Positions 29,779-32,455 of a DNA stretch of 64,000 bases are shown here, in pieces. The stretch spans positions 1 through 64,000 of the forward strand of contig DVEF01000089.1 in NCBI GenBank assembly GCA_015295805.1. Direction: 5' to 3'. Position numbers and translations under genes: made by a program. Source of the stretch: Geminocystis sp. M7585_C2015_104. GTDB taxonomy: Bacteria; Cyanobacteriota; Cyanobacteriia; Cyanobacteriales; Cyanobacteriaceae. Under the pieces are notes generated by a model, which made no database searches, was not told the origin of the DNA, and worked only from the letters and a program-made list of their open reading frames with translations. Within the stretch, counting starts at the first letter, position 1. The number at the start of each line of letters is the position of its first letter.

Positions 29779-30672
29779 ATGGAGTTAGCATTGGAAAAAG
29801 AGGGAATGCCATTGCCATCGGTGCCTAAGGAGTATCTGAAGGCGCCAGGGGGGTGGAATCCTAACGTAATAATGTTTATAACAGCAATACTACTAGGAAT
29901 AAGCTCAGTGTGCGGGCACTTCTTCTGGCATTTTCCCAATTGGTATTGTTTTCTTGCCAATGTTTTGGCATTACACATGTCAGGGACAGTAATTCACGAT
30001 GCTTCTCATAACAGTGCCCATAGCAATAAGATAATAAACGCCATAATGGGACATGGAAGTGCATTGATGTTAGGATTTTCTTTTCCAGTATTTACCAGAG
30101 TCCATTTACAACATCATGCCCATGTGAATGACCCAGAAAACGATCCAGATCATTTTGTATCTACGGGAGGACCATTATGGATGATAGCAGCTAGATTTTT
30201 CTACCATGAGGTCTTCTTTTTTAAACGGAAACTTTGGCGAAATTGGGAATTATTAGAGTGGTTTTTGGGTCGTTTATTAGTGTTTATAATTGTATTTCTG
30301 GGAATAAAATATGGTTTTATAAATTATCTAATGAACTATTGGTTTGTGCCGGCGTTGGTAGTGGGAATTGCCCTAGGTTTGTTTTTTGATTATCTACCCC
30401 ATAGACCATTTAAAGAAACAGATCGTTGGAAAAATGCAAGAGTCTATCCCAGTCGTATCCTAAACATCTTGATTTTTGGACAAAATTATCATCTGATACA
30501 CCATCTATGGCCCTCCATACCCTGGTATAAATACCAAGACGCCTATTATGCCACCAAACCCCTATTAGATGCCAAGGGATGTGCCCAAACCCTGGATTTA
30601 TGGAATGGGAAAAATTTCTTGGAATTCCTCTACGATGTTTTCCTGGGAATTCGCTTTTACCCCAAAAAATAG
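29779..30672 (+). CDS. crtR: Beta-carotene 3-hydroxylase, CrtR type
   Basis: A membrane di-iron hydroxylase that makes zeaxanthin from beta-carotene (and works on echinenone or deoxymyxol derivatives in cyanobacteria). 297 residues with paired hydrophobic helices at about 28-67 and 162-206. The histidine boxes of the fatty-acid-desaturase fold are complete: HDASHNSAH (73-81), HLQHHAH (109-115) and HLIHH (238-242). NDPENDPDHF and HLWPSIPWYKYQDAY are typical for CrtR. It precedes petN by 76 bp on the same strand. Confidence 0.93.
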   Translation: MELALEKEGMPLPSVPKEYLKAPGGWNPNVIMFITAILLGISSVCGHFFWHFPNWYCFLANVLALHMSGTVIHDASHNSAHSNKIINAIMGHGSALMLGFSFPVFTRVHLQHHAHVNDPENDPDHFVSTGGPLWMIAARFFYHEVFFFKRKLWRNWELLEWFLGRLLVFIIVFLGIKYGFINYLMNYWFVPALVVGIALGLFFDYLPHRPFKETDRWKNARVYPSRILNILIFGQNYHLIHHLWPSIPWYKYQDAYYATKPLLDAKGCAQTLDLWNGKNFLEFLYDVFLGIRFYPKK

Positions 30673-30748: not shown

Positions 30749-30838
30749 ATGGACATTCTAACACTAGGTTGGGTTGGTATTCTGGCGTTGTTTTCCTGGT
30801 CCATTGCTATGGTAGTATGGGGACGTAGAGGGTTTTGA
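30749..30838 (+). CDS. petN: Cytochrome b6f complex subunit PetN
   Basis: A 29-residue single-helix subunit of the thylakoid cytochrome b6f complex. The translation [18 protein letters not shown] followed by [11 protein letters not shown] is nearly the textbook PetN sequence. The gene is below the size most gene finders report. AAGG stands 7 bases before the ATG. The TGA stop (30836-30838) is followed, in the same frame and after one codon, by the start of the next small gene. Confidence 0.97.
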
Positions 30839-30841
30839 GAG

Positions 30842-30979
30842 GTGGAGTTGGAATCGGTATACAATGTTTTGTTCGTGATAGCGCTGGGGTTGTTGTTATT
30901 TGTCAGTGGAGGGGTTTTTTACCTCACCAGTCTTCAGTGGCGGGATAGACGTCGTAGGGAAAGAGATAAACGTCTTTAA
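30842..30979 (+). CDS. 45-residue single-helix protein behind petN
   Basis: A frame of 45 codons begins with GTG at 30842 (or TTG at 30848), one codon after and in phase with the petN stop. It encodes one hydrophobic helix (LFVIALGLLLFVSGGVFYL, about 10-28) followed by a strongly basic tail (QWRDRRRRERDKR), the topology of a small thylakoid or plasma-membrane subunit with its tail in the cytosol. GAGAGG overlaps the petN stop, which suggests coupled translation. A GC-rich hairpin follows at 31001. I do not recognise the family. Confidence 0.7.
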   Translation: MELESVYNVLFVIALGLLLFVSGGVFYLTSLQWRDRRRRERDKRL

Positions 30980-31000: not shown

Positions 31001-31016
31001 GCCCCCCCAGGGGGGC
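31001..31016 (+). terminator. GC-rich hairpin after the petN gene pair
   Basis: GCCCCCCC (31001-31008) faces GGGGGGC (31010-31016), 22 bp after the small gene and 9 bp before the ATG of the next gene. The loop is minimal and no T tract follows, so it could be a terminator or a translation-hindering stem in front of 31025. Confidence 0.45.
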
Positions 31017-31024
31017 TGTCGTTT

Positions 31025-32455
31025 ATGATGAAAGGTAGTGAGATAGAAAAACAAAGTAACCCCTTGCCTTGGATATTCGGGTTGGCTGTGGGGGGCGTTT
31101 TATTACTGGTGGGGTGGAATTGGGCATCCTGGAATCGTCTTGTCAATTCAGAGGGGGATTGGCAGAAATACACAGTAGTAGTAAAACGGGAAACTATAAA
31201 TCCAAGAATTAGAGCCAGCGGCAGGGTAGAAGCCGTCGATATTGTGAATATCAGTCCCAAAAACCCCGGCAGGATTGCTAGGCTGTTGGTGGACCAGGGA
31301 GCAATAGTAAAAAAAGGACAGCTAGTTGCTATAATGGAGAATGGGGAGTTGTATGCCCAGGGGGCAAAGGCAGAAGCGGCCCTAAAGGAAGCAGAAGCCA
31401 CATTGAGGGAAAGAGATATAGCTATCCAGGGAGAGATTCAAAGACTGTCAGCACAGCTTCTTCAAGCCACAGCCAACCTCGAAGAAGCAAAAGAAAGAAT
31501 CCCCCGACAAGTTGAGCAAGTGGCCTCCCAATTAAAAGAAGCAGAGTCCAGACTATTGCTGGCAGAAACCGAATTAAACCGAAATGAACAACTTTTGAAG
31601 GATGGAGTAATCACCCAGTCCCAATTTGATCAACTAGCAAGTCAGTACCTGGTGGCCAAGGCAAATGTACAACAAATCCAGCAGAGACTAGAAGAATTAA
31701 AAAGGACAGCACAACCCACCCTCAGACGTTTAGAAGCCACGGTAAGAGAAATTCAGATTGCCCTCCAGGAAAGACAAGTGCGTGGCAAAGCAGAGATAGA
31801 AAGACTAAAAGCCAGTGTGAAAGCGGCCCGAGCCAATCTAGAGTTGGCCAAAATCCAGTACCAGGACAGTTTTATTGTAGCACCCTTTGATGGTATTATC
31901 ACTCAGCGCTTTGCCACAGAGGGAGCCTTTGTAACTCCTACAACTTCAGCATCTAGTACAGCATCTGCCACCTCTACCTCCATAGTAGCACTGGCCAGAG
32001 GGTTAGAGATAGTGGCAAAAGTGCCAGAAATAGACCTAAAACAGATTAGGATAGGGCAACCGGTGGATATTATCGCCGATGCCTACCCCACGGAGGTGTT
32101 TAGAGGGGTTGTAAAACGAATTGCCCCCGCCGCTATTATAGAACAAAATGTGACCTCCTTTGAGGTGAAAATTGATATTCTCACAGGCAAGGAGAAATTG
32201 TTGTCGGGAATGAATGTAGAGGTACAGTTCCTCGGTGAGCAGCAAGATACAATAGTAGTACCCACAGTGGCAATAGTTACAGAAAAAGGGCAAACGGGGG
32301 TAATGATACCGGATGAGAAGGGGAGGCCCAAATTCAAGCCGGTGACAATAGGTACAACTGTGGAGGATAAGACACAGATACTGAATGGTTTGTCTGTAGG
32401 GGAAAGAATTTTTATAAACCTGCCAGAGGATCAAAAAAGCCGTACAAGCCCATAA
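31025..32455 (+). CDS. HlyD/MacA-type membrane fusion protein
   Basis: Periplasmic adaptor of an export system, 476 residues, anchored by one N-terminal helix (about 15-31). The lipoyl halves (SPKNPGRIARLLVDQGAIVKKGQLVA at about 78-103 and the later YQDSFIVAPFDGIITQRF at about 279-296) flank a long coiled-coil hairpin (about 110-275) rich in Glu, Gln and Leu. Beta-barrel and proximal domains follow (DVEIDL-like VPEIDLKQIRIGQPVDI and VPTVAIVTEKG). No ABC or RND transporter gene is adjacent; in DevBCA-like systems the permease is usually next door, so its partner must be elsewhere. Confidence 0.88.
   Translation: MMKGSEIEKQSNPLPWIFGLAVGGVLLLVGWNWASWNRLVNSEGDWQKYTVVVKRETINPRIRASGRVEAVDIVNISPKNPGRIARLLVDQGAIVKKGQLVAIMENGELYAQGAKAEAALKEAEATLRERDIAIQGEIQRLSAQLLQATANLEEAKERIPRQVEQVASQLKEAESRLLLAETELNRNEQLLKDGVITQSQFDQLASQYLVAKANVQQIQQRLEELKRTAQPTLRRLEATVREIQIALQERQVRGKAEIERLKASVKAARANLELAKIQYQDSFIVAPFDGIITQRFATEGAFVTPTTSASSTASATSTSIVALARGLEIVAKVPEIDLKQIRIGQPVDIIADAYPTEVFRGVVKRIAPAAIIEQNVTSFEVKIDILTGKEKLLSGMNVEVQFLGEQQDTIVVPTVAIVTEKGQTGVMIPDEKGRPKFKPVTIGTTVEDKTQILNGLSVGERIFINLPEDQKSRTSP

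Follow-up and report, generated by a model that had tools for sequence, protein, structure and literature searches.

A conserved small membrane-protein gene behind petN in cyanobacteria, probably related to photosystem I or chlorophyll-based photosynthesis

Introduction

The analysed stretch of Geminocystis DNA (64,000 nucleotides, referred to below as the window) contains petN, the gene for subunit VIII of the cytochrome b6f complex, and directly behind it a reading frame of 45 codons. This arrangement raises the question of whether a small membrane-protein gene has been missed and which photosynthetic complex it would serve. The initial annotation considered the frame a possible missed subunit or assembly partner of b6f. 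We suggest, from the pattern of gene retention and decay across genomes, that the small gene probably serves photosystem I (PSI) or chlorophyll-based photosynthesis instead. Nearly every sampled oxygenic cyanobacterium keeps it, as constantly as petN, and no function, domain model or structure was found for it; if the suggestion is true, a core part of PSI biogenesis or of the connection between b6f and PSI may have escaped notice.

Results and Discussion

The petN locus

The features of the locus are the following.

29779-30672, upstream of petN: crtR, beta-carotene hydroxylase (NCBIfam E 8e-163)
30749-30838, plus strand: petN, 29-aa cytochrome b6f subunit VIII (PF03742 E 7.4e-17; NCBIfam NF011331, PetN equivalog, E 3.6e-19)
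30827-30832, plus strand: AGAGGG, Shine-Dalgarno-like, inside the last petN codons and 9 nt before the GTG, read directly from the sequence
30842-30979, plus strand: small gene behind petN, 45 codons with GTG start, open reading frame homologous to Synechocystis sgl0002
31001-31016, plus strand: GC-rich hairpin GCCCCCCCAGGGGGGC with a weak T tail, found by the terminator scan between the small gene and the next gene
31025-32455, downstream of the small gene: HlyD/RND-type membrane fusion protein

The petN stop codon in the window is TGA, followed by the single codon GAG (30839-30841) and the GTG start, all in the same frame, confirming the initial description of the frame. The product is MELESVYNVLFVIALGLLLFVSGGVFYLTSLQWRDRRRRERDKRL. 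It comprises a short acidic N-terminus, one transmembrane helix, the conserved motif VSGGxxYLTxxxWRDRRR and a basic C-terminal tail.

Starts coupled through the sequence GAGAGG had been proposed initially. That sequence (30837-30842) extends into the first base of the GTG and does not form a normally spaced ribosome-binding site, while coupling itself is still conceivable: AGAGGG at 30827-30832 is possibly the better binding-site candidate, and stop-to-start reinitiation from petN is possible as well. The hairpin gave three overlapping calls in the terminator scan, against 0.8 expected in shuffles, and possibly marks the end of the petN-small-gene transcript; since it parts the small gene from the HlyD/RND-type gene, petN and the small gene may be transcribed as a unit of two genes.

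Conservation and constraint

A frame of 40-50 codons is nothing unusual: the window has 109. The small gene, judged by comparison of genomes, is nevertheless a real protein-coding gene far beyond chance, because a translated search detected homologues in 57 of 60 relatives (33 families of the order) and a profile search (a profile built from 38 members) did so in 183 of 184 genomes sampled across the class Cyanobacteriia, including probable Prochlorococcus and Gloeobacter, and because the pooled pN/pS was 0.145 (pS 0.404, pN 0.059; 11 close pairs, not all independent). The test of frame conservation and synonymous excess on which the initial annotation had made the gene depend thus came out in its favour. 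All 55 near-complete relatives carried a homologue, and PetN was found in 182 of the 184 class genomes, so that the two are equally frequent. Outside the class, the phylum-wide sample gave only six borderline scores (0.004-0.009), taken as chance, and a search of viral contigs with a picocyanobacterial copy found no relative. Four genomes (G101, G275, G357, G549) had neither petN nor the small gene while PSI, D1/D2 and cytochrome b were present, and the two missing genes are most likely assembly gaps in these multi-contig drafts.

The alignment consensus is MExxxxLNxLFLxAxxLLVxVSGGILYLTxxEWRDRRRQxRDKR; when the start codon is not counted, every sequence of the broader alignment has Y26 and R36, and at least 90% have D34 and R37. 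Start codons assigned by a simple rule were most often GTG (47 of 87). The window gene has the traits of the sgl0002 family, namely a single helix, VSGG..YLT..(E/D)(W/F)RDRRR, a basic tail and a position behind petN. The initial label of the frame as unannotated holds as far as function is concerned, but not in the literal sense, since the homologue in Synechocystis 6803 is annotated as the hypothetical protein sgl0002.

Linkage to petN

In 123 of the 137 genomes where both could be placed, the small gene comes right after petN (same strand, within 1 kb); these include the deep branches G439, G473 and G481 and branches judged Gloeobacter-like (L145, L146, L149, L153, L156). The linkage in these deep Gloeobacter-like branches suggests that the pair was probably already present in the common ancestor of living oxygenic cyanobacteria.

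Read-through of the TGA, giving a PetN fusion protein, was part of the initial proposal. In the window the frame does continue in phase after one codon, and most members of the window's family also have the in-phase 3-nt gap; however, the petN of the closest congener ends in TAA, the small gene has a conserved start codon and its own N-terminus, and across the 123 linked genomes the frame relative to petN (0/1/2) was 46/37/40, while the petN stops in the fetched loci were TAA in 35 cases, TAG in 29 and TGA in 8. With nearly equal frames and stops that are mostly TAA or TAG, the TGA that stands in phase in the window is no conserved signal for read-through. The fusion is refuted as a conserved mechanism, and read-through as such is extremely improbable.

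In the remaining 14 of the 137 genomes the small gene is unlinked from petN, and reading the neighbours of unlinked loci by eye gave no consistent photosynthetic partner and was judged uninformative. In L043, L051, L053, L055 and L035 a same-strand transglutaminase-like gene precedes it by about 100-400 nt; in L050 and L052 (G023, G051) a PAM68-like gene (photosystem II assembly factor) is downstream on the same strand, both neighbours being assigned by eye. A local duplication was observed in G492 (C4:529294-530228), where all matches fall within less than 1 kb around petN: two forward copies have identical scores, and a third match on the opposite strand has one internal TAG.

Predicted protein and structural searches

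The single helix and very basic tail described initially were both recovered. The protein has one hydrophobic segment (best Kyte-Doolittle window at residues 9-27, 2.48), with net charges of -2 for residues 1-7 and +5 for residues 33-45. An AlphaFold2 model of the 44 residues after the start codon shows a single helix from residue 2 to residue 43 (mean pLDDT 92). By the positive-inside rule, this charge pattern predicts a cytoplasmic tail and an N-terminus in the lumen or periplasm.

No family was found for the protein in Pfam or NCBIfam, and Rfam gave no match. The matches to TRAP_alpha, PsbZ/Ycf9, TMEM100 and CD225 (E 0.0007-0.2) involved few members each, were of the hydrophobic-helix type and were not taken as homology. 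The family profile matched no chain among PDB sequences below E 0.29 in one search and 0.79 in another, while PetN, as positive control, was found in 7r0w, 2zt9, 1vf5 and other entries. The solved b6f complexes, including 7r0w, therefore contain no chain matching the profile, and neither do the solved structures of PSI and photosystem II (PSII), which argues against a permanent photosystem subunit. The single-span NDH-1 subunits NdhP and NdhQ were also rejected as its identity, as no PDB chain matches the family and they are separate genes in Synechocystis (sml0013 and Norf6, PMC5126843). The missing chain in any solved structure points to an assembly or auxiliary role.

Genomes without photosystems

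Four reduced endosymbiont genomes of 2.5-3.1 Mb in one family (f8; G185, G219, G300, G569) have no functional D1/D2, and their PsaA/B are absent or only stop-riddled remains, while petB (cytochrome b), petG and petN are all intact. The small gene directly behind petN is broken in all four, each with a different lesion:

G219: stop at codon 2
G185: stop at codon 7
G300: frame shift removing YLTxxxWRDRRR
G569: GTG changed to GTA, plus an early stop

G182, which belongs to the same genus, is photosynthetic with both photosystems and has an intact copy. By size and gene content, the four are probably the spheroid bodies of rhopalodiacean diatoms, which have lost PSI, PSII, chlorophyll synthesis and much else and retain thylakoid membranes (PMC5638926). 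The decay comes from one endosymbiont clade and probably represents one loss of constraint, and since chlorophyll synthesis and much else were lost too, it does not single out PSI itself as the cause.

As read from these genomes, b6f can work without the small gene where photosystems are lacking, which bears directly on the initial idea of a missed b6f subunit or assembly partner. What stands of that idea is a conserved small membrane-protein gene coupled to petN: the linkage is probably ancestral, the spacing is tight, the protein falls in the size class of PetG, PetL, PetM and PetN, and its topology is likely the same. Like these, it is a tiny single-span protein of the photosynthetic membrane; unlike these, it is not in the solved b6f complexes, no sequence similarity to them was detected, and its gene is not kept where b6f is kept without photosystems. 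A b6f role is thus weakened by four broken copies beside intact petB, petG and petN and by the missing PDB chain, and we consider it unlikely. Decay where the photosystems are lost and b6f is kept allows a concrete assignment and argues against a guess from the neighbour petN.

Genomes with photosystem I and without photosystem II

Two genomes of 1.4-1.5 Mb (G540, G541) have no D1/D2 (PF00124), while PsaA/B, PetN and PetG are intact. By size and gene content they are probably UCYN-A, in which PSII is lost and PSI and b6f are present (PMC6315102). Both keep a 44-codon frame of the small gene (MQVLNFLFYTAFTLLVLVSIGVIYLTVMDRYGRYSQKQSEENKF in G541) under constraint (pN 0.11 vs pS 0.50). The small gene is thus kept with PSI in this pair and broken without PSI in the four genomes above, with one clade on each side; the evidence for retention is one clade of two genomes. 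In the loci of the pair (L126 for G541 and L127 for G540, 1501-1740) the helix and VSIGxIYLT are kept, and the near-invariant tail EWRDRRR is replaced by MDRYGRY.. and MDRHSSY.., respectively. This single clade suggests that the WRDRRR tail touches something absent there, and part of the function of the small protein may concern that absent component.

The altered tail would also fit an accessory protein of PSII or the phycobilisome. The co-expression cluster that includes sgl0002 in 756 microarrays counts 43 genes, among them 15 PSII, 8 PSI, 3 b6f and 12 phycobilisome genes, and the study remarks on the position of sgl0002 near petN (PMC4770689). Three of 28 family members score weakly against PsbZ (best E 0.002). 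However, a PSII factor should be lost with PSII, and G540 and G541 retain the gene under constraint. The probable Prochlorococcus genomes g84 and g90 likewise keep the small gene, with a [WF]KD[RK][RK] motif, and Prochlorococcus is generally without phycobilisomes. An accessory role of this kind is improbable.

Proposed function

Breakage without photosystems while b6f is kept, retention with PSI in the absence of PSII, and the missing PDB chain together make an auxiliary factor in the biogenesis of PSI or chlorophyll-proteins, or a link between b6f and PSI, more likely than a b6f subunit. We propose that the small gene encodes a PSI-side single-span auxiliary factor made with PetN, with a probability of about 0.5 for this explanation as a whole. 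The protein of about 45 residues would span the membrane once, with its N-terminus toward the lumen or periplasm and a basic helical tail in the cytoplasm, where the tail could serve as a docking site. It would be produced together with PetN, presumably by co-transcription, and would belong to chlorophyll-based photosynthesis on the side of its putative partner PSI. There it would most likely help to build or stabilise PSI (or chlorophyll-proteins in general), or hold PSI-related components near b6f, and it would not be a permanent b6f subunit. Counted against this proposal is the fact that the conserved partner gene, petN, is a b6f gene.

A linker or regulator bound to b6f only in the presence of PSI, helping cyclic electron flow, supercomplex formation or state transitions, would join the petN linkage (123 of 137 genomes, deep branches included) with the PSI-type pattern of retention and decay. 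The 14 unlinked genomes speak against it, as does its absence from solved b6f and PSI structures, although purification loses loose partners; we regard this role as possible and somewhat doubtful. A wider statement, which we put forward tentatively as a little less likely than not, is that the protein is universal in oxygenic cyanobacteria, has been paired with petN since their common ancestor, and either couples b6f to PSI or is needed to build PSI, and that its tiny size, its hydrophobicity, its usual GTG start and its loss on purification explain why it was missed.

Membrane or membrane-associated factors of photosystem biogenesis that are absent from the finished complex are known, such as Ycf3, Ycf4, Ycf37 and PsbN. 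The small protein may be of a similar kind to these, Ycf3, Ycf4 and Ycf37 being on the PSI side, while no sequence similarity to them was detected.

The Synechocystis homologue

In Synechocystis 6803, petN is sml0004 (160004-160093, minus strand) and sgl0002 lies at 159812-159961 on the minus strand, encoding a hypothetical protein of 49 aa with no Arabidopsis homologue noted (Table 2, PMC5126843); the gap calculated from these coordinates is 42 nt. In genome G049 (L021) the gap behind petN is likewise exactly 42 nt and the product has 49 aa; the gap recurs in Synechocystis salina (L114), whose protein is nearly identical. From the coordinates and these congeners, we infer that sgl0002 is the homologue of the small gene. 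Both genes are behind petN on the same strand, and the window gene differs in its 3-nt gap and shorter tail. Our literature search found no functional study and, beyond the two papers cited, none naming sgl0002.

In L114, L021, L099 and L105, part of the WRDRR motif is encoded by a HIP1-type palindrome, GCGATCGC, which does not encode the motif in the window gene. The same RDR residues are encoded there by CGG GAT AGA, indicating that the motif is held at the protein level.
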